This document shows positions 16,145 to 24,356 of a stretch of 64,000 nt of DNA, one piece after another. The notes under the pieces are model-generated. The model was not told where the DNA came from. It worked only from the letters and a program-made list of their open reading frames with translations, and made no database searches. The stretch is from contig NZ_JNXI01000006.1 in NCBI RefSeq assembly GCF_000717055.1, positions 62,001-126,000 of the forward strand, in the 5' to 3' direction. How positions within the stretch are numbered: the stretch's first letter is position 1; every line of letters starts with the position of its first letter. A program made the translations under genes and the position numbers. Origin of the DNA: Streptomyces iakyrus. GTDB lineage: Bacteria > Actinomycetota > Actinomycetes > Streptomycetales > Streptomycetaceae.

Positions 16145-16702
16145 ATGCAGCCAAGCAAGGGCCGTCCCTGCGGCGGCGGGGCCGGCCAGGAGAGCCGGGT
16201 CGAGCCTCTCGACGGTCATGAACCGGTCCCGGCCGAGGAGGCCGGACAGCTCAGGTACGACGATCCCTGGTACGACGCCCTCGCCTCCGGCTGGGGCGAG
16301 TCGTCCGACGAGGCCCAAGCCCAGCCGGTGGTCCCGTCGGCACGGACGGAGGGCGATGCGGAGGCCGCGGCGGCCGACGTGTACCTGGAAGTGCAGCGCA
16401 GTGCGGCCTTTCAGGAGGTGCGGCAGCGGTACCGGAAGTTCGTGGTGCCGGCGTCCGTGGCGTTCTTCACCTGGTACGTGGGCTACGTCGTGACCGCCAC
16501 GACGGCACCGGAGCTGATGGCGCGGCCCGTGGCGGGAGCGGTGAACGTCGCGATGGTGGCGGGGCTCGGGCAGTTCCTGTCCACCTTCCTTCTCACCTGG
16601 GCCTACGCGCGGCACGCGCGGCTGCGCAGGGACCGAGCCGCCCTCGAACTGCGGTGGGACACACAGGAACTGACCCGTGGCGTGAGCGGCGGTGCGTCGT
16701 GA
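16145..16702 (+). CDS. DUF485 membrane protein, partner of SSS symporter
   Basis: A 185-residue small membrane protein. Residues 1-80 are hydrophilic and contain the YDDPWYDALASGWGE motif seen in Streptomyces members. The DUF485 domain at about 85-170 has FQEVRQRYRKFVVP followed by two hydrophobic segments (SVAFFTWYVGYVVTA and VNVAMVAGLGQFLSTFLL) and a basic end. DUF485 proteins usually precede acetate or carboxylate permeases of the SSS family and probably assist them in the membrane. The stop overlaps the GTG of the symporter by four bases (GTGA), so the two are translationally coupled. The start is not well fixed: ATG 16145 lacks a Shine-Dalgarno sequence, and TTG 16139 and ATG 16219 are alternatives. 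Confidence 0.82.
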   Translation: MQPSKGRPCGGGAGQESRVEPLDGHEPVPAEEAGQLRYDDPWYDALASGWGESSDEAQAQPVVPSARTEGDAEAAAADVYLEVQRSAAFQEVRQRYRKFVVPASVAFFTWYVGYVVTATTAPELMARPVAGAVNVAMVAGLGQFLSTFLLTWAYARHARLRRDRAALELRWDTQELTRGVSGGAS

Positions 16703-18291
16703 CGGAAGAACACCAGACGCTTGCGCTGCTGCTCTTCAGCGCCTTCGTCGCCGTCACGCTGGGGATCACCACCTGGGTCAGCCGCAACCGGCGTGGCTCG
16801 GCGGAGGAGTTCTACGCGGGCGGACGGCTCTTCTCCCCCATGGAGAATGGTTTTGCCATCGCCGGTGACTACATGTCGGCCGCTTCCTTCCTCGGGGTCA
16901 CCGGGCTCATCGCGCTGTTCGGCTATGACGGGCTGCTGTATGTCGTGGGCTTCCTCGTGGCGTGGCTGGTGGTGCTGTTCCTGGTCGCCGAACTGGTCCG
17001 CAACTGCGGCCGGTTCACGCTCGCCGACGTCGTGGCGGCCCGGATGAGGGAACGGCCGGTCCGGATCGCGGCGGGAACCTCCTCGGTCACGGTGTCCGTT
17101 CTCTATCTGGTGGCGCAGATGGTCGGAGCGGGCAGCCTGGTGGCGCTGCTGCTCGGGGGCACGAGCGACGCGGCCCGTGCTTGGACCGTCATCGGTGTGG
17201 GCGCGCTCATGGTGATCTATGTGTCGTTGGGAGGGATGCGCGCGACCACGTGGATCCAGATCGTCAAGGCCGTCCTGCTGCTCGGCGGCACCATCGCGCT
17301 GACGGCGCTCGTCCTGATGCGCTTCCACGGCGACCTGAACCGGCTGCTGCTCACGGCAGCCGAGCGCAGTGGGCACGGCGCGGCGTTCCTGGCGCCCGGG
17401 CTGAAGTACGGCGAGGACTGGACCGCCCGCTTCGACTTCATCAGTCTGGGGCTGGCTCTGGTGCTGGGCACGGCAGGGCTGCCGCACATCCTGTCCCGCT
17501 TCTACACCGTGCCCACCGCGCGGGCCGCGCGCCGCTCGGTCGTCTGGGCCGTCGGGCTCATCGGCGGCTTCTACCTGATGACGATCGTGCTCGGATTCGG
17601 TGCGGCCGCCATCCTGGGGCCGGACACGGTGCGCGCTTCGAACGCGGCCGGGAACACGGCGGTTCCGCTGCTGGCGCTCGATCTGGGCGGTGGTGCGGGA
17701 TCCACCGGCGGGACGGTTCTCTTCGCGATCGTCGCCGCGGTCGCCTTCGCCACGATCCTCGCCGTGGTCGCCGGCATCACGCTCGCCTCCTCGGCGTCCG
17801 TGGCCCACGACCTGTACGCGTCCCTGCGGCGCCGGGGCGGGAAGCCGCGCAGCGAGGTGACGGTGGCCCGTATCGCGGCCGTCGGTGTCGGTGCGGTGGC
17901 GATCGCGCTCGGTCTGCTGGCGCGGGATCTCAACGTGGCGTTCCTGGTGGGCCTGGCATTCGCCGTCGCAGCGTCGGCGAACCTGCCGGTGCTGCTCTAC
18001 TCGCTGTTCTGGCGCGGCTTCACCACCCGGGGTGCCGTGTGGGCGGTCTACGGCGGTCTGGCCCCGGCGGTGGTGCTCGTGGTGCTGTCACCGGTGGTCT
18101 CGGGCAGCCCCGACTCGCTCTTCCCGGGCATCGACCTCCAGCTCTTCCCTCTGCAGAACCCGGGTCTCGTCTCGATCCCCCTCGGCTTCCTCGCGGGCTG
18201 GCTGGGCACGGTCACCTCGGCGGAGGTACCGGACGAGGTCAAGCACGCGGAGACAGAGGTGCGGTCGCTGACGGGTGCGGGAGCGGCGTAG
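16699..18291 (+). CDS. Sodium:solute symporter (SSS), cation/acetate (ActP/MctC) type
   Basis: An integral membrane cotransporter of 530 residues with about 13 hydrophobic segments. SAEEFYAGGRLFSPMENGFA followed by GDYMSAASFLG is characteristic of the acetate/monocarboxylate branch of SSS, and GTAGLPHILSRFYTVP is the conserved central motif. The DUF485 partner directly upstream supports a carboxylate substrate such as acetate, pyruvate or propionate. A CitA/CitB-type two-component system sits tail-to-tail 70 bp downstream, suggesting that external carboxylate controls expression; this link is inferred. The GTG at 16699 overlaps the DUF485 stop. Confidence 0.9.
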   Translation: MTEEHQTLALLLFSAFVAVTLGITTWVSRNRRGSAEEFYAGGRLFSPMENGFAIAGDYMSAASFLGVTGLIALFGYDGLLYVVGFLVAWLVVLFLVAELVRNCGRFTLADVVAARMRERPVRIAAGTSSVTVSVLYLVAQMVGAGSLVALLLGGTSDAARAWTVIGVGALMVIYVSLGGMRATTWIQIVKAVLLLGGTIALTALVLMRFHGDLNRLLLTAAERSGHGAAFLAPGLKYGEDWTARFDFISLGLALVLGTAGLPHILSRFYTVPTARAARRSVVWAVGLIGGFYLMTIVLGFGAAAILGPDTVRASNAAGNTAVPLLALDLGGGAGSTGGTVLFAIVAAVAFATILAVVAGITLASSASVAHDLYASLRRRGGKPRSEVTVARIAAVGVGAVAIALGLLARDLNVAFLVGLAFAVAASANLPVLLYSLFWRGFTTRGAVWAVYGGLAPAVVLVVLSPVVSGSPDSLFPGIDLQLFPLQNPGLVSIPLGFLAGWLGTVTSAEVPDEVKHAETEVRSLTGAGAA

Positions 18292-18362
18292 CGGCGGTGC
18301 CGCCGACGCCACGGTCGAGGGGGAGCCGTCGCCGGTTCGTGGAAACGCCGCGGGATGTCGCC

Positions 18363-19043
18363 TCAGCCGCGGGTCGCCCACACATAGCGGTGCTCCGGGC
18401 GGCCCGCGTCGCCGTACTTGAGGGTCAGCCTGGCCCGTCCCGTGCGTTCCAGGAGCTTCAGATAGCGCTGGGCGGTCTGGCGGCTCACTCCGGTCCGCTC
18501 GGCGATCTCCTGGGCGGACAGGGGCCCGTCCGCGTGCATCAGGGACTGGCGGACCAGCTCCGCGGTGGTGGGGGAGTGGCCTTTGGGCAGGTCGGGCTCC
18601 GAGGACGCCGACAGGGCGCCGAAGATGCGGTCCACCTCGGCTTGTTCCGCCTCTCCGCCGCCGTCCAGGGTGCGGCGCAGTTCCGCGTAGGCCTCCAGCT
18701 TGGCGCGCAGGCCGGCGAAGGCGAACGGCTTGACCAGGTACTGCAGTGCGCCGTGCCGCATCGCCGCCTGCACGGTGGAGACGTCCCGGGCCGCCGTCAC
18801 CATGATCACGTCGGTCTGGTCGCCGCGCCGCCGCATCTCCTGGACGACCGTGAGTCCCGTCGCGTCCGGCAGGTAGTGGTCCAGGAGCACCAGGTCAAGC
18901 CGGGGCAGCGTCTCCAGCCGGTGCAGCGCCTCGGCGGCGCTGTGGGCCTCTCCGGCGACATGGAAGCCCGGTACCTTCTCGACATAGGCGGCGTTGACCC
19001 GCGCGACTCTCACGTCGTCGTCCACGACCAGGACTTCGATCAT
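18363..19043 (-). CDS. CitB/DcuR-type response regulator
   Basis: A 226-residue response regulator. The receiver domain (1-120) has acidic residues DDD at 8-10, the phosphoacceptor Asp55 in VLLDHYLP, Thr in VTAA and Lys in YLVKPF. The effector part (about 165-226) is a winged helix of the CitB class (SAQEIAERTGVSRQTAQRYL), followed by the family ending LKYGDAGRPEHRYVWA. The start ATG at 19043 overlaps the kinase stop by one base (TGATG), so it is coupled to the kinase gene. It probably controls the convergent DUF485/symporter operon in response to an extracellular di- or tricarboxylate; this is inferred from family and position. Confidence 0.92.
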   Translation of the reverse strand: MIEVLVVDDDVRVARVNAAYVEKVPGFHVAGEAHSAAEALHRLETLPRLDLVLLDHYLPDATGLTVVQEMRRRGDQTDVIMVTAARDVSTVQAAMRHGALQYLVKPFAFAGLRAKLEAYAELRRTLDGGGEAEQAEVDRIFGALSASSEPDLPKGHSPTTAELVRQSLMHADGPLSAQEIAERTGVSRQTAQRYLKLLERTGRARLTLKYGDAGRPEHRYVWATRG

Positions 19044-20716
19044 CACGACCCCTCCTCGGCGGTCTGCGGTGCGGACGGCACGGTCGAAACGGCCGGTTCG
19101 GGACCCGGTCCGGCCAGCGCCTCGGGCAGGACGACGGTGAACTCCGCGCCTCCGCCGTGCGCCTCGCCGACCGTAGCGCTGCCACCCTGCCGCTCCGCCA
19201 GCCTGCGCACCAGGGAGAGTCCGATGCCCCGCTCGCGGTGAGCCGGCGGCTCCTTCGTGGACCATCCCGTGGTGAAGATCAACTCCCGGTGCTCCGGCGG
19301 GATTCCCGGACCCGTGTCGCGCACTCTGAGGATCGCCGTACGCCCCTCGGCGCGCAGTTCGACCTCCACGCGCGCGTGCGGCTTGCCGGCGACCGCGTCG
19401 AGGGCGTTGTCCACCAGGTTCCCCACGACGGTGACGAGCCCCTGCGGGTCGACCAGCCGGTCGGGCAGCCGGGTCCGGTCCGACACCCCCAGGGCGACGC
19501 CCCGCTCGGCGGCGACGGTCGCCTTGCCGACCAGCAGGGCGGCGAGCAGCGGGTCCTCGATCCGCTCGGTGACCTGCTCCGCGGTGGCCCGGTGGTCACC
19601 GACGACCTCGCCGACGAACTCGACGGCGTCGTCGTACATCTCCAGTTCGAGCAGCCCCAGCAGCGTGTGCATACGGTTGGCGTGCTCGTGGTCCTGGGCC
19701 CGCAGGGCGTCGATCAGACCGCGGGTGGAGTCCAGTTCGCGGCCCAGCTGCTCCAGCTCGGTGCGGTCGCGCAGGGTGGCCACGGCGCCGCCGTCGTCGG
19801 TGGGCATGCGGTTGGCGACCAGCACCCGCTGGCCGCGCACGGTGAGCAGATCCGTGCCGGTGACGCGCCCGGCCAGCACATCGGCCGTACGGCCCGCGCC
19901 GAGCGCCTCGTCGGGTGAACGGCCCACCACCGCTTCCCCGATGCCCAGCAGGCGCTGCGCCTCGTCGTTCACGAGACGGATGCGGCCGGTGCGGTCCAGG
20001 GCGACGACCCCCTCGCGGATACCGTGCAGCATCGCCTCGCGTTCCGACAGGAGCGCCGCGATGTCCGAGAAGGCCAGGTCCCTGGTCTGCCGGTGGACCC
20101 GCCGGGAGATGAGCCACGCCGCCAGCGCGCCCACGGCCAGGGCACCGCCGGCGTAGGCGAGCAGCCCGGGGATCGCGTGGATCAGCCGGGCCCGGACGCT
20201 GTCGTAGGCGATGCCGACCGAGACCGCGCCGACGACGGTGCCGTCGCTGTCGCGCAGCGGCACCTTCCCCCGGGCGGAGCGGCCCAGGGTGCCGCTGTCG
20301 ATCTCCATGACGTCCTTGCCGGCCAGGGCCTGCCCGGGGTCGGTCGAGACGATGCCGCCGATCTGCTTCGGGTCCGTGTGTGACCAGCGCACGCCCCGCC
20401 AGTCCATCACCACGATGTACTCGGCCTTGGTGGCCTTGCGGATGCGCTCCGCCTCCCGCTGCACCGGGCCGTCCGGCGAGGGCGGCGTGTCCCGCACGTC
20501 CTCAGCCAGGTCCGGCAGCTGTGCGGTCGTCTGCGCGATCGCGAGCGCGCGGCGCATGGCCTGGTCGTCGAGCTGGTTGCTGAGGGGGGCGAGGAACAAT
20601 CCGGTCGCGAGCACCGCGACTCCCGCGGCGATCGCCACCTGCATCAGCAGCACCTGCGAGAACACCCGCCGGGGCAGGCCGAGGCGCAGGCGGCGTGCGG
20701 GGGGAGTGGGGCTCAT
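19043..20716 (-). CDS. CitA/DcuS-type sensor histidine kinase
   Basis: A 557-residue membrane sensor kinase. TM1 is at about 20-42 (VLLMQVAIAAGVAVLATGLFL). A periplasmic-type PDC/CitAP sensor domain follows at about 45-180 (GVRWSHTDPKQIGGIVSTDP and the GSVS-like VGAVSVGIAYD typical of carboxylate sensors). TM2 is at about 185-205. A cytoplasmic PAS domain spans 225-320. The SpoOB-like dimerisation helix carries phosphoacceptor His in QDHEHANRMHTLLGLLEL. The HATPase domain has NLVDNALDAV, DTGPGIP and RGIGLSLVRRL. Genes of this class usually sense citrate, malate, succinate or fumarate. The reader and partner is the regulator overlapping its stop; the neighbouring carboxylate-type symporter is the likely target. 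Confidence 0.92.
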   Translation of the reverse strand: MSPTPPARRLRLGLPRRVFSQVLLMQVAIAAGVAVLATGLFLAPLSNQLDDQAMRRALAIAQTTAQLPDLAEDVRDTPPSPDGPVQREAERIRKATKAEYIVVMDWRGVRWSHTDPKQIGGIVSTDPGQALAGKDVMEIDSGTLGRSARGKVPLRDSDGTVVGAVSVGIAYDSVRARLIHAIPGLLAYAGGALAVGALAAWLISRRVHRQTRDLAFSDIAALLSEREAMLHGIREGVVALDRTGRIRLVNDEAQRLLGIGEAVVGRSPDEALGAGRTADVLAGRVTGTDLLTVRGQRVLVANRMPTDDGGAVATLRDRTELEQLGRELDSTRGLIDALRAQDHEHANRMHTLLGLLELEMYDDAVEFVGEVVGDHRATAEQVTERIEDPLLAALLVGKATVAAERGVALGVSDRTRLPDRLVDPQGLVTVVGNLVDNALDAVAGKPHARVEVELRAEGRTAILRVRDTGPGIPPEHRELIFTTGWSTKEPPAHRERGIGLSLVRRLAERQGGSATVGEAHGGGAEFTVVLPEALAGPGPEPAVSTVPSAPQTAEEGS

Positions 20717-20827
20717 ACCGAAGACCGTACGTGCGCCCGGCCGCCGTCCCTAGACGGGTGTGGCGTGGATCTCCCGGTCAATGTGTACGGAGGCGGCATC
20801 AATGTGTGCCCGAGGCGAGCCGGACGG

Positions 20828-21772
20828 TCAGCTGGCCAGTGAGGTTGTCATCCTCACCTCGCGCACCGCCACCACGTCCATGCGTGCGGGCGTACCGAGG
20901 ACGGACGCCCCGCAGCTCTCGGGGCGGGCCGGCAGGGCCGCGCCCTGGGCCACGTCGACCTGCCAATGGCGTCCGTCGGCGTGGGCGACGGTCACCTCCC
21001 AGCGCGGGGCCGAGCCGGACGTCCGCACGACGCTCAGAGCCTCGGCGTCGTACTCGCCGGCCCTGGTGCGCACGGCGAGCTCGGCTGCTTGGCCGGGCCG
21101 GTCCCAGGCCGAGCTGCCCCGGCATCCCTCCACGACGATCCGCCCCTCTCGGGCGCCGTGCAGGACCTCCTTGAGGGAGTGGGCCTCGGCCCGGCCGTAC
21201 GCGTATCCGTACGGCAGCACGAGCACCGTGGGGGAGAAGCGGTGACCACCCAGATGGGTGACCTCCCAGACGCCCTCGACCCCCGAGGTCGCCAGCTCGG
21301 CCGCGAGCGGCCGGCCCAGAAGGGCGCAGCAGCGGTCGCGCTTGCCGTTGGTGCAGACGAGGGCGAGCGGGTCACCGTCGTGGGGCCGGCCGCCGAGCAG
21401 CGCGCCGAACGAGCGGTGGTCCCCCCGGCCGAGCGCGGCGAAGTCGAGGCCCAGCAGCTCTCCGGGGTCCGGGGTCGAGGCGCTGTGCAGCCATACGTTG
21501 CCCGGCACGACGTGCGCGGCGTACACCCGGCGCGCCGCGGGCATGCGGCGGTCCGCGTGGCGCCCGGGGCGGCGGATGAGCGCGATCCGTACGCCCGTGT
21601 CCTTGGTGGCCGCCTCCAGGGCACGCCCCAGGGCGGGGTCCAGGTGGCTCGAGGTGAGCGCCTTGGCACCCCACGGACCGGGCTGTTCCAGCAACAGCCA
21701 GGTCCTCGCGGTGGCCGCGGTTCCCGAAACGGGCTCGGCGAAGTCCCGGGAGACGCTTGAGCACGTACTCAC
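20828..21772 (-). CDS. Sucrase/ferredoxin-like family protein (iron-regulated)
   Basis: A 314-residue soluble protein of the Suc_Fer-like family, which has a thioredoxin-fold ferredoxin-like domain. CTNGKRDRCCALLGRPLA near residue 165 and THLGGHRFSPTVLVLP near 200 are the family's conserved cysteine and histidine segments and may hold a [2Fe-2S] cluster. The name sucrase is historical, and no sugar chemistry is implied. I start it at the GTG at 21772 (MSTCSSVSRDF). A near-consensus iron box overlapping a -10 element abuts this start, so transcription is probably leaderless and repressed by DmdR-type (DtxR-family) iron regulators. A role in reducing or releasing siderophore iron would fit; this is inferred. 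The frame stays open far upstream through the citrate synthase gene's antisense, which I discount. Confidence 0.82.
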   Translation of the reverse strand: MSTCSSVSRDFAEPVSGTAATARTWLLLEQPGPWGAKALTSSHLDPALGRALEAATKDTGVRIALIRRPGRHADRRMPAARRVYAAHVVPGNVWLHSASTPDPGELLGLDFAALGRGDHRSFGALLGGRPHDGDPLALVCTNGKRDRCCALLGRPLAAELATSGVEGVWEVTHLGGHRFSPTVLVLPYGYAYGRAEAHSLKEVLHGAREGRIVVEGCRGSSAWDRPGQAAELAVRTRAGEYDAEALSVVRTSGSAPRWEVTVAHADGRHWQVDVAQGAALPARPESCGASVLGTPARMDVVAVREVRMTTSLAS

Positions 21773-21825: not shown

Positions 21826-23085
21826 CTACTCCGGCAGTGGCTGCGGCGGTTTCGGACCTGCGTAGAGACCGCTCGGGCGCATCCGCAGGGGGCGCTCGCC
21901 GTACTCCTCCAGGGCGTGGGCGATCCAGCCCGCCGTCCGGGCCACCGCGAAGATCGTCTCGCCTGCGCTCGGGGCCATGCCGCAGGACACGGTGAGCACG
22001 GCCAGGGCCAGGTCCACGTTGGCGTGCAGGGGAGAGTGCCGGGCGGTCGTCTCGACGATGTCGCGGGCCGCGAGGAGAGCGGGCTCCGCGCGCGGGATCT
22101 GCTCCAGGAGGGCGAACAGGGCACGCGCGCGTGGGTCCTCGCCGGGGTAGAGCCGGTGTCCCAGGCCCGGGATGCGGCGGCCGGCGCGCAGTTCGTCCGC
22201 GATCACGGGTGCCGCGTCGCCCTGGTCGAGCACGTCCATCAGCAGCCGGTGGGCGAGCCCACTGGCGGCGCCGTGCAGCGGGCCCTCGATCACGCCGAGC
22301 CCGGCGGAGACCGCGGCGTAGGCGTGGGCCCGGGCGGACGCGGCGATGCGCACCGCGAGGGTGGAGGCGGCCAGGTCGTGGTCGACGAGGAGGGCGAGGG
22401 CGGTGTCCAGGGCACGCAGGGAGGCCTCGTCGGGGTCCTCGTGCACCGACAGCCTGGACCACAGGCGGTGGACCAGGGGGCCCTCGTCGCGGAGCCGGTG
22501 GCCCGCAGGGGGCAGAGCGGCCACGAGCGTGGGGATGAGGGTGCGCGCGGTGCCGAGTACGGCGCCTTCCGACAGGTCGAACCGCAGGGGATCGGCGGTC
22601 GCGGCGGCGATCGTCGCGACCCTCAACAGGTCGGCGGGAGCGGCGTGTTCGGGCAGGGCGTCGACGGCGCGGCGGGCGACGGCGACGGAAGCGGACGGCG
22701 CGGTGAACGTGCTGCCCGGGAGCATCCGGCCCGTCCACAGCCACTCGGCGACCTCCTCGTAGGTGTGCCGTGTGGCCAGGTCGACCGCGTCGACACCGCG
22801 GAAGAAGTAGCGGTCGCTGTCGATGAGCGTGATGCGGGTGCGGACGGACAGCTCGCCGCCGGAGCCGGAACCGCCGGTGCTCTCCCGCCTGTTGCGCCGG
22901 GCGAGTGCCTCGACCTCCCCGGCGTCGAAGGTGCTGCCCCGGCCGCCGCTCACCCGCCGGCTGCTGAGCTGGCCGCGACTCACGTACGCGTACACGGTCT
23001 CCGGCTTCACGCCGAGCAGCTCGGCGGCCTCCTTGGTGCTCAACCGTCGTTCCGTGCCCTGGGGGGCGGGCTCTTGATCGCGCAT
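21826..23085 (-). CDS. Citrate synthase-like protein with N-terminal helix-turn-helix DNA-binding domain
   Basis: A 419-residue fusion. Residues 13-65 are an excisionase/MerR-type HTH (LSTKEAAELLGVKPETVYAY, then RGQLSSRRVSGGRGSTFDAG with the short wing, then EVEALARRN). Residues about 78-410 are a citrate synthase fold that keeps the three catalytic positions: His271 in GPLHGAA, His310 in GLGHRLY and Asp358 in HANVDLA. Catalysis (acetyl-CoA plus oxaloacetate to citrate) therefore looks possible, but a DNA-binding domain implies a regulatory role. The ATG at 23085 is seven bases after a TACGGT -10 box, suggesting a leaderless message; GTG 23094 is the alternative. It is divergent from a second citrate synthase across an AT-rich palindrome that it probably binds. 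Similar fusions occur in other Streptomyces. Confidence 0.9.
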   Translation of the reverse strand: MRDQEPAPQGTERRLSTKEAAELLGVKPETVYAYVSRGQLSSRRVSGGRGSTFDAGEVEALARRNRRESTGGSGSGGELSVRTRITLIDSDRYFFRGVDAVDLATRHTYEEVAEWLWTGRMLPGSTFTAPSASVAVARRAVDALPEHAAPADLLRVATIAAATADPLRFDLSEGAVLGTARTLIPTLVAALPPAGHRLRDEGPLVHRLWSRLSVHEDPDEASLRALDTALALLVDHDLAASTLAVRIAASARAHAYAAVSAGLGVIEGPLHGAASGLAHRLLMDVLDQGDAAPVIADELRAGRRIPGLGHRLYPGEDPRARALFALLEQIPRAEPALLAARDIVETTARHSPLHANVDLALAVLTVSCGMAPSAGETIFAVARTAGWIAHALEEYGERPLRMRPSGLYAGPKPPQPLPE

Positions 23086-23123
23086 GGGGGCCACCGTATC
23101 CGTCCTGCGGACCATTGATTAAT

Positions 23124-23142
23124 ATATTGATTCAATCAATAT
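23124..23142. promoter_or_regulatory. AT-rich 19-bp perfect palindrome in the divergent citrate synthase promoter
   Basis: ATATTGATTCAATCAATAT is a perfect palindrome about a central C, in a genome with very few A/T runs. An extra ATTGATT half-site lies at 23114-23120 and a TCAATCA at 23157-23163. The cluster lies between the two citrate synthase genes and overlaps where their -35 regions must be. The HTH-citrate synthase protein is the obvious candidate to bind it. Confidence 0.75.
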
Positions 23143-23195
23143 TGACAGAGCTTTAGTCAATCATGGACAGTCGAATCAAGTCCAGGGAGGAAGTC

Positions 23196-24356
23196 ATGTC
23201 CGTGAACAGGTCAGCAGCCACTCTTGTCGAAGCGCCCCGGGGGCTTGCCGGTGTCGTCGTCACCGACACCCGGATCGGTGATGTCCGCGGTCTGGAGGGC
23301 TTCTACCACTACCGCCAGTACTCCGCCGTCGACCTCGCGCGGACCCGCGGCTTCGAGGACGTCTGGCATCTGCTCGTACACGGCGAACTGCCGGACGCCG
23401 AGCGGAGTGCGGCCTTCGCGGCCGAGACGGCGGCGCTGCGGAGCCTGCCCGACGAGGTGCGCGCGGCGCTGCCGGCCATCGCCGCGGCCGGTGGGCGCTC
23501 CGGGCCGCTGGCCGGGATGCGTACCGCGCTGTCGCTGCTGGGTGCGGCCAAGGGATTCCGCCCCGTGTACGACATCGACGCCGACCGGCGCCGGAGGGAC
23601 ACGATCGAGGCGGCCGCGGCCGTACCGACGCTGCTCACCGCGCTGCACCGGCTGGGCAAGGGGCTGGAACCGGTGGAGCCGAGGGAGGACCTGACCTACG
23701 CGGCGAACTACCTGTACATGCTGACCGGTTCGGTGCCGACCGAGCGGCACGCGCGGGCGATCGAGCAATACTTGATCTCAACCATTGATCACGGATTCAA
23801 TGCATCCACCTTCACGGCCCGGGTCATCGCGTCGACGGGCGCGGACGTGGCGGCCTGCCTGGCCGGGGCGGTGGCGGCGCTGTCGGGGCCGTTGCACGGA
23901 GGCGCGCCCAGCCGGGCCCTGGACACCCTGGACGCGATCGGCACCCCGGACCGTATCGATCCCTGGGTGCGTCAGCGGGTGCTCGCCGGCGAGCGCATCA
24001 TGGGGTTCGGACACGCGATCTACCGCACGGAGGACCCGCGCTCCCGGATGCTGCGCGAGGTCGCCCAGGGGTTCGGCGGGCCGCGGGTGGACTTCGCCGT
24101 CGAGGTCGAGCGTCACATCGAGGCGATCCTGGCGGAGCTGAAGCCCGGGCGGGAGCTGCACACCAACGTCGAGTACTACGCGGGCGTGGTCATGGAACTC
24201 TGCGGTCTGCCCCGCGAGATGTTCACCCCGACCTTCGCCGCCGGCCGGTCGGTGGGCTGGAGTGCCAACATCCTGGAACAGGCGGAGGACACGAAGATCA
24301 TCAGGCCCGTGGCGCGGTACGTGGGGCCGGAGGCGCCGGTGCCCGTGCCGGCCTGA
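23196..24356 (+). CDS. Citrate synthase (type II-like second copy)
   Basis: A 386-residue citrate synthase family enzyme that would condense oxaloacetate and acetyl-CoA; a methylcitrate synthase role is also possible. The ATG at 23196 follows AGGGAGGAAG with good spacing. Visible landmarks are the N-terminal DVRGLEGFYHYRQY, the substrate pocket DHGFNAST (residues 198-205), His234 in GPLHGGA and His273 in GFGHAIY. At the position of the catalytic Asp of the usual NVDFYSG motif it has Glu326 (NVEYYAG), which may affect the reaction. It is divergent from the HTH-citrate synthase gene with a shared AT-rich control region. Codons 196-203 form an A/T-rich patch that repeats the operator motif. Confidence 0.92.
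   Translation: MSVNRSAATLVEAPRGLAGVVVTDTRIGDVRGLEGFYHYRQYSAVDLARTRGFEDVWHLLVHGELPDAERSAAFAAETAALRSLPDEVRAALPAIAAAGGRSGPLAGMRTALSLLGAAKGFRPVYDIDADRRRRDTIEAAAAVPTLLTALHRLGKGLEPVEPREDLTYAANYLYMLTGSVPTERHARAIEQYLISTIDHGFNASTFTARVIASTGADVAACLAGAVAALSGPLHGGAPSRALDTLDAIGTPDRIDPWVRQRVLAGERIMGFGHAIYRTEDPRSRMLREVAQGFGGPRVDFAVEVERHIEAILAELKPGRELHTNVEYYAGVVMELCGLPREMFTPTFAAGRSVGWSANILEQAEDTKIIRPVARYVGPEAPVPVPA
23781..23803. promoter_or_regulatory. Intragenic copy of the citrate-synthase operator motif
   Basis: ACCATTGATC followed by ACGGATTCAATGC repeats the sequence seen upstream (ACCATTGATT and GATTCAATC). The arms ATTGA (23784-23788) and TCAAT (23797-23801) form an inverted repeat. The stretch uses disfavoured codons (ATT, GAT, GGA, AAT, GCA) inside a gene that otherwise uses GC-ending codons. 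Confidence 0.5.

Follow-up and report, generated by a model that had tools for sequence, protein, structure and literature searches.

The closest described counterparts of the locus analysed here are SCO5831 and SCO5832 of S. coelicolor, which have been described as the putative citrate synthases citA3/citA4 (PMC12323332). The passages of that paper on the pair report that MtrA binds a probe from the intergenic region and that in an mtrA mutant the levels of both transcripts are raised at late times, so this region has at least one regulator other than the one proposed below. SCO5831 is also reported to be more abundant in phosphate proficiency (PMC9739823, PMC8981147) and stands at -1.238 in a transcriptome table (PMC7324645). 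In Saccharopolyspora, citA and citA4, the latter a possible orthologue of the S. coelicolor gene of that name, are described as repressed by GlnR (PMC10704036). The passages on SCO5831/SCO5832 in PMC12323332, PMC9739823, PMC8981147 and PMC7324645 mention no helix-turn-helix (HTH) domain or regulator role for SCO5831. A paper on a fusion of HTH and citrate synthase (CS) was not found among titles, abstracts and passages that included few subscription papers; the fusion itself is visible in databases.

The window, by which we mean the whole stretch of 64,000 nucleotides analysed from Streptomyces iakyrus, contains a gene that the preliminary description had read as an HTH fused to a full CS domain. 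This reading holds, since the open reading frame is present and both domains exceed their Pfam cut-offs. We refer to the protein as HTH-CS and to the second CS homologue, which does lie divergently from it as claimed, as CS2. The coding features are the following.

21826..23085, minus strand: HTH-CS coding sequence, 419 aa from the conserved ATG (open reading frame, Pfam and start comparison)
22891..23043, minus strand: winged HTH, residues 25-75 of 429, of HTH_17 / MerR / excisionase type (Pfam, NCBIfam, models)
22855..22881, minus strand: linker, residues 79-87, pLDDT below 50 in the AlphaFold model
21874..22854, minus strand: citrate synthase domain, residues 88-414 (Pfam, alignments, model)
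23196..24356, plus strand: CS2, stand-alone citrate synthase homologue, 386 aa from the ATG behind AGGGAGGAAG, with Glu at the catalytic Asp position

The longest ATG start of HTH-CS, at 23115, would give 429 aa, and residue numbers are given in this 429-aa numbering. We regard the ATG at 23085, also the start in the preliminary description, as the conserved one because a conserved -10-like TACGGT occupies the codons that precede it and because the lengths of relatives, commonly 418-421 aa among the database matches listed, fit. By gene order HTH-CS is the orthologue of SCO5831: the reported order of SCO5831, a sucrase/ferredoxin-like gene and a two-component system (PMC9739823) is the same in the window. 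There, genes for the sucrase/ferredoxin-like protein, a histidine kinase resembling DcuS and a response regulator resembling DcuR lie downstream of HTH-CS on the same strand (16654-21757), and a gene for an MctC-type monocarboxylate transporter faces them.

The CS domain of HTH-CS scores 207.1 bits with Citrate_synt (PF00285, residues 88-414) and the N-terminus 34.9 bits with HTH_17 (residues 25-75), each against a curated cut-off of 27. The N-terminus also passes MerR (PF00376, 28.7 against 28.2), MerR_1 (PF13411, 22.5 against 21.6) and the NCBIfam excisionase HTH domain (31.0 against 28.8), which places it among the MerR-type winged HTHs. In the AlphaFold model a winged HTH is joined by the low-confidence linker to a CS fold. 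That the N-terminus might not be an HTH had been named beforehand as a ground for abandoning the idea; with the Pfam and NCBIfam cut-offs passed and the HTH present in both structure models, we reject a prediction artefact. A DNA-binding domain and a ligand-binding enzyme domain thus share one chain, as in trigger enzymes and one-component regulators. Membership of the BldC family is ruled out, as its model NF033787 gives 20.9 of the 77 bits needed. Members of the MerR family have a long dimerisation helix behind the HTH. The HTH-CS model lacks such a helix, showing helix 65-79 only, followed by the disordered linker and the CS domain. The NCBIfam citrate synthase models stay below cut-off for HTH-CS (PRK12350.1 157.9 of 332, TIGR01800 145.7 of 421.3). 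The HTH residues are strongly conserved among HTH-CS proteins, and the HTH is kept even in distant families.

The active site is also well kept. His246, His281, His320, Arg329, Asp368, Arg393 and Arg413, which we take to be the counterparts by role of the classical CS residues (catalytic His/His/Asp; oxaloacetate-binding His and Arg), are all present in 101/101 Streptomyces HTH-CS loci. They include the three catalytic residues of the preliminary description, whose 271, 310 and 358 correspond to His281, His320 and Asp368. An 87-member alignment that includes Actinomadura and Nonomuraea has five of the seven invariant, with His281 in 87/87, His320 in 85/87 and Asp368 in 86/87. Among 40 more distant loci the counts are 39 for His246, 38 for His281, 35 for His320, 39 for Arg329, 38 for Asp368, 39 for Arg393 and 37 for Arg413, the residual cases being either changed residues or uncovered positions.

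These counts bear on whether the CS domain could be a sensor only, binding ligands and no longer making citrate. The Asn of the DHxxNAST-type motif has become Ala in 101/101 Streptomyces HTH-CS, a change in the active-site shell that speaks against ordinary CS catalysis. Position 324, at which other CS contact CoA, is variable among Streptomyces HTH-CS, and the missed NCBIfam equivalog cut-offs point the same way. So does a second HTH-CS paralogue in one Streptomyces (L120:6222-7481, minus strand), whose active site is short of two His and one Arg although its HTH is retained (HTH_17, 41.9 bits). Close to this paralogue are a complete CS gene and another gene whose match to PrpD (2-methylcitrate dehydratase) is weak. 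Against a sensor without catalysis stands the retention of the catalytic Asp and His in every Streptomyces locus and in most members of the two wider sets, and we place this reading a little short of probable. As the catalytic residues are kept, a regulating enzyme is as likely as a pure sensor, and we lean slightly towards an enzyme that is still active. The phrase "turned transcription factor" in the preliminary description may therefore overstate the case: the HTH is there, but so are the catalytic residues.

CS2 scores 366.2 bits with Citrate_synt and is by position the orthologue of SCO5832. It retains the Asn of the DHxxNAST-type motif and has Glu at the catalytic Asp position in 94/94 covered Streptomyces sequences (4 more are uncovered) and in 31/31 from other families (1 more is uncovered). 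The B. subtilis enzyme 2c6x also aligns a Glu here. The source genome has four CS genes, and of the two outside the locus one carries Asp and the other Glu. With Glu in CS2 and Asp in HTH-CS, the unusual catalytic residue sits in the presumed target and not in the regulator, and the activity or substrate of CS2 may be unusual. The earlier label of a "parallel enzyme" has to be read with this Glu in mind.

The AT-rich palindrome that had been noticed between the two genes is ATTGATTCAATCAAT at 23126-23140. Comparison across Streptomyces gives the operator as TCAAYRTTGAYYNRRTCAA with the core ATTGAYTNARTCAAT, and towards CS2 the consensus reads aTTGATtcAATCAAtaTTGACAg-N6-agTCAANcaTgGACAGT. The palindrome abuts the putative -35 TTGACA of CS2, in which TTGA forms a third half-site. 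The elements of the intergenic region (23086-23195) are these.

23093..23098, minus strand: TACGGT, putative HTH-CS -10, 7 nt before the ATG, from which a leaderless transcript would follow
23114..23120, no strand assigned: extra ATTGATT half-site between the operator and the HTH-CS -10
23127..23145, minus strand: operator 19-mer TCAATATTGATTGAATCAA, defined by comparison; its 15-bp core is the palindrome given above
23142..23147, plus strand: TTGACA, putative CS2 -35, whose TTGA part is an operator half-site
23156..23160, plus strand: conserved GTCAA half-site in the CS2 spacer
23166..23171, plus strand: GACAGT, putative CS2 -10 after an 18-bp spacer, overlapping a stretch that resembles the S. 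coelicolor MtrA site

A chance palindrome can be rejected, since TCAAYRTTGAN{2,8}TCAAYR has one match in the 9.13-Mb source genome and the backward pattern zero.

Among the 101 Streptomyces loci CS2 is divergent in 96 (in one of them, L076, 4 kb away), has another orientation in 2 and is not found nearby in 3. The set includes the window itself (L005) and three pairs that look like the same contigs from two collections (L010/L070, L011/L107, L015/L105), so at most 98 loci are independent. All 95 directly divergent loci carry TCAAYRTTGAYYNRRTCAA at up to 2 mismatches. The strict operator lies upstream of HTH-CS in 96/101 loci and occurs 3 times in the remaining 937 kb, and these three sites match those before displaced CS2 genes. 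In S. aurantiacus (L011/L107), where CS2 has the other orientation, each gene has its own site, the HTH-CS copy with 1 mismatch; in S. fuscichromogenes (L076) a separate site likewise precedes each of the two genes. One locus (L050) has two operator sites.

We considered whether the site is simply part of the CS2 promoter and rejected this, because it is kept before HTH-CS where CS2 is absent, as in L058 and L069, which have no CS2 nearby, and in the type B loci described below. A genome in three contigs (G027) has CS2 and no HTH-CS at E <=1e-90, and no site at up to 2 mismatches occurs in the fetched 8 kb around its CS2, which argues likewise. In G012 and G151, where a rearrangement has split CS2, the operator stays with HTH-CS, and the stretch fetched around the larger CS2 part, which lies elsewhere, contains no site at up to 2 mismatches. 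In L206 (G022), a locus in decay, HTH-CS and CS2 survive only as adjacent remnants.

The association extends to whole genomes. In a set of 61, the exact 19-mer is found in 19/21 genomes with HTH-CS and in 0/40 without it, with a few off-locus matches at 1 mismatch. A search of 150 Streptomyces genomes finds HTH-CS (E up to 1e-90) in 96 of them, CS2 (E up to 1e-120) in 94 and both in 92. The strict operator occurs in 84 of the 150, namely in 82/96 with HTH-CS and 2/54 without, and the backward operator gives zero matches in 150/150. Of the two exceptions, G513 has a partial HTH-CS at a contig end and was tallied as negative, and G458 has an odd-spaced match; the HTH-CS of G504 is also a fragment at a contig end. 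For three of the 82 (G465, G507, G518) the sole strict match lies off the HTH-CS locus. A strict match is absent in 14/96 HTH-CS genomes, and G013, G162 and G511 have HTH-CS with neither CS2 nor a local operator. Across the loci, the 150 genomes and the CoA-transferase sets treated below, the conserved operator travels with HTH-CS.

It is against this co-inheritance that a role for MtrA has to be weighed. The palindrome might be read by MtrA or another regulator, with the HTH of HTH-CS used otherwise or not at all, and the S. coelicolor binding and transcript data cited above speak for it. Yet MtrA occurs widely among Actinobacteria, and the distribution of the palindrome is that of HTH-CS. 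Moreover, the MtrA site reported for S. coelicolor resembles the stretch at the CS2 -10 (13/16 letters against the window) and not the palindrome, and the strong conservation of the HTH residues also counts against this explanation, which we judge very unlikely.

Beyond Streptomyces, matches that include the HTH region come under 11 family labels (394 genomes of the class). Relatives with a name belong to Actinomadura, Spirillospora, Nonomuraea and Actinoallomurus, among others. In the set of 46 loci fetched, a divergent CS2 homologue lies upstream in 32 (type A; partial in one), 4 have a divergent homocitrate-synthase-like gene in its place (type B; L121, L122, L156, L162), three have neither gene opposite HTH-CS (L186, L188, L189), and three have no N-terminal match (L123, L124, L185). 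The type B neighbour in L026/L122 carries Pfam HMGL-like and HCS_D2 domains, and its best NCBIfam model, nifV_homocitr, reaches 248 bits, below the cut-off of 463. The strict site is found in 15/28 scored type A loci, 4/4 of type B and 1/3 with a solitary HTH-CS; the remaining 306 kb of the loci contain none. A variant, RTTGATTNNNRTCAA, read by eye, lies upstream in 12/13 type A loci that miss the strict site. As the strict site also precedes type B and solitary HTH-CS genes, it goes with HTH-CS whichever gene is opposite.

A further target is suggested by extra operator sites in G546 and G518, which precede one common gene encoding a family III CoA-transferase. CoA-transferase genes with their operator context were recorded in L195:3644-5026 (minus strand), L196:3340-4737 (minus strand) and L207-L264. 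In a first set, for which the best 30 of 40 matches were fetched, the core ATTGAYTNARTCAAT at up to 2 mismatches lies upstream of this gene in 10/18 genomes with HTH-CS against 0/14 without (Fisher 0.0013, kinship ignored). This set includes L195 and L196, from which the idea came, so the held-out set is the fair test: 8/13 with HTH-CS against 1/14 without (Fisher 0.0044, kinship ignored). Genomes without the CoA-transferase were left out of these counts (21/61 in the first search, 5/32 in the second). Random 175-bp windows of the CoA-transferase loci, true sites included, contain the core at up to 2 mismatches in 58/3000 cases. The sole HTH-CS-negative genome with a site is G107, at 2 mismatches; conversely, the site is absent in 8/18 and 5/13 of the HTH-CS genomes in the two sets. 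This particular CoA-transferase gene is missing from the source genome at E 1e-80.

These sites also bear on a further alternative, in which HTH-CS is an ordinary citrate synthase whose HTH is vestigial and regulates nothing. The persistence of HTH-CS in G013, G162 and G511 would fit it, but precisely these three genomes have a perfect core before the CoA-transferase gene. Together with the conservation of the HTH out to distant families, this makes a vestigial HTH extremely improbable. We consider that HTH-CS very probably acts on the conserved operator.

The direction of control is less certain. In the MerR family the operator lies inside a promoter spacer of 19-20 bp. This arrangement is not seen at CS2, where the 18-bp spacer, read by eye, holds only one half-site and the main palindrome lies upstream of, and overlapping, the putative -35. 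HTH-CS might nevertheless activate its own promoter, that of CS2 or both when ligand-bound, in a MerR-like or class II manner. Over 99 loci the distance from the operator to the putative HTH-CS -10 is 15-18 in 29, 27-31 in 51, 36-43 in 14 and elsewhere in 5, in steps of about 11-12 bp and often with an added TCAA or TCCA half-site; the figures comprise 49 non-redundant spacers with -10 boxes read from the consensus, and the comparison with uniform spacing ignores kinship, which lessens their weight for activation. Distances phased in this way would fit a contact to RNA polymerase or a cooperative mode of binding, and no TTGACA-like -35 for HTH-CS is seen among the spacers listed. On the other side, the operator overlaps the -35 hexamer at CS2 and ends 4 nt before the putative -10 at the CoA-transferase gene, both positions usual for repressors. 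These two positions favour repression, and we regard activation as rather unlikely and repression of CS2 by HTH-CS as moderately likely.

The explanation we prefer, and hold to be likely as a whole, is that HTH-CS is a one-component regulator that senses through its CS domain, represses CS2 and regulates itself. CS enzymes are dimers, and an HTH-CS dimer would therefore offer two HTHs to inverted half-sites. The CS dimer would set the two winged HTHs on the inverted TTGA/TCAA half-sites of the core, a position that would overlap the CS2 -35 and lie at or upstream of the -35 region of the HTH-CS promoter. In some other species HTH-CS would most likely also repress the family III CoA-transferase gene. 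With an oxoacid, an acyl-CoA or both bound in the CS active site, the dimer would move between its open and closed forms, and the two HTHs would then fit the DNA differently. Candidate ligands are the compounds that this site would be expected to bind: oxaloacetate or some other oxoacid, together with acetyl- or propionyl-CoA. The preliminary description had proposed acetyl-CoA, oxaloacetate or citrate, and the Asn-to-Ala change has to be weighed here too. That sensing runs through this site is, in our view, narrowly favoured. Since the protein retains its catalytic residues, the switch may include turnover itself. More tentatively, and as no more than a fair possibility, a catalytically competent citrate synthase could do both the sensing and the repressing for a small acyl-CoA regulon found across Actinomycetes, with the open/closed cycle of its dimer setting the HTH spacing and its turnover reading the acetyl-CoA/oxaloacetate balance. 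That regulon would comprise its own gene and CS2, in other clades the homocitrate-synthase-like gene, and in some Streptomyces the family III CoA-transferase gene.

Comparison lends support to the proposal that HTH-CS binds the palindrome and controls the two genes, through the conserved operator, its duplicated copies in rearranged loci, the co-occurrence and the further site elsewhere in some genomes. The circuit of HTH-CS, operator and CS2 is in this sense a well-supported hypothesis, with more behind it than the preliminary description could draw on. Domain architecture, active-site conservation and the operator with its co-inheritance with HTH-CS are read directly from sequence, and from them we infer DNA binding, repression, a ligand and enzyme activity. 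Our results suggest that an enzyme of central metabolism also acts as a genetic switch, perhaps as a trigger enzyme with its own gene, CS2 and further acyl-CoA enzymes under its control. If this is true, the citrate synthase fold, through which carbon enters the TCA cycle, would join the few metabolic enzymes known to carry a fused DNA-binding domain. Streptomyces and relatives would gain a direct link from acetyl-CoA/oxaloacetate status to gene expression, with a bearing on how precursors are split between the TCA cycle and antibiotics, and there would be a reason why extra citrate synthase genes are kept in these genomes. Work on HTH-CS can start directly from an operator that is already delimited, from the natural pair of presumed targets and from the additional candidate target of other species.

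Among described proteins, the citrate synthase CitA of Caulobacter is reported to control the cell cycle in a way that does not require its catalytic activity (PMC7083601); it shares with the proposed HTH-CS the regulatory role of a citrate synthase. It differs in acting on CtrA, an effect suspected to be indirect, and the passages on it mention no fused DNA-binding domain (PMC7083601). Compared with type II citrate and 2-methylcitrate synthases, HTH-CS adds the N-terminal HTH, has the Asn-to-Ala change and scores below the NCBIfam equivalog cut-offs. BldC, Xis, RacA, CarH and SoxR share the MerR-superfamily winged HTH, and unlike HTH-CS none of them has a CS domain. PutA, BirA and NadR are trigger enzymes with a fused DNA-binding domain, and we know of no trigger enzyme built on a citrate synthase. 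HTH-CS, known from sequence, resembles these three in joining enzyme and DNA-binding domain in one chain and in adjoining genes of related metabolism.
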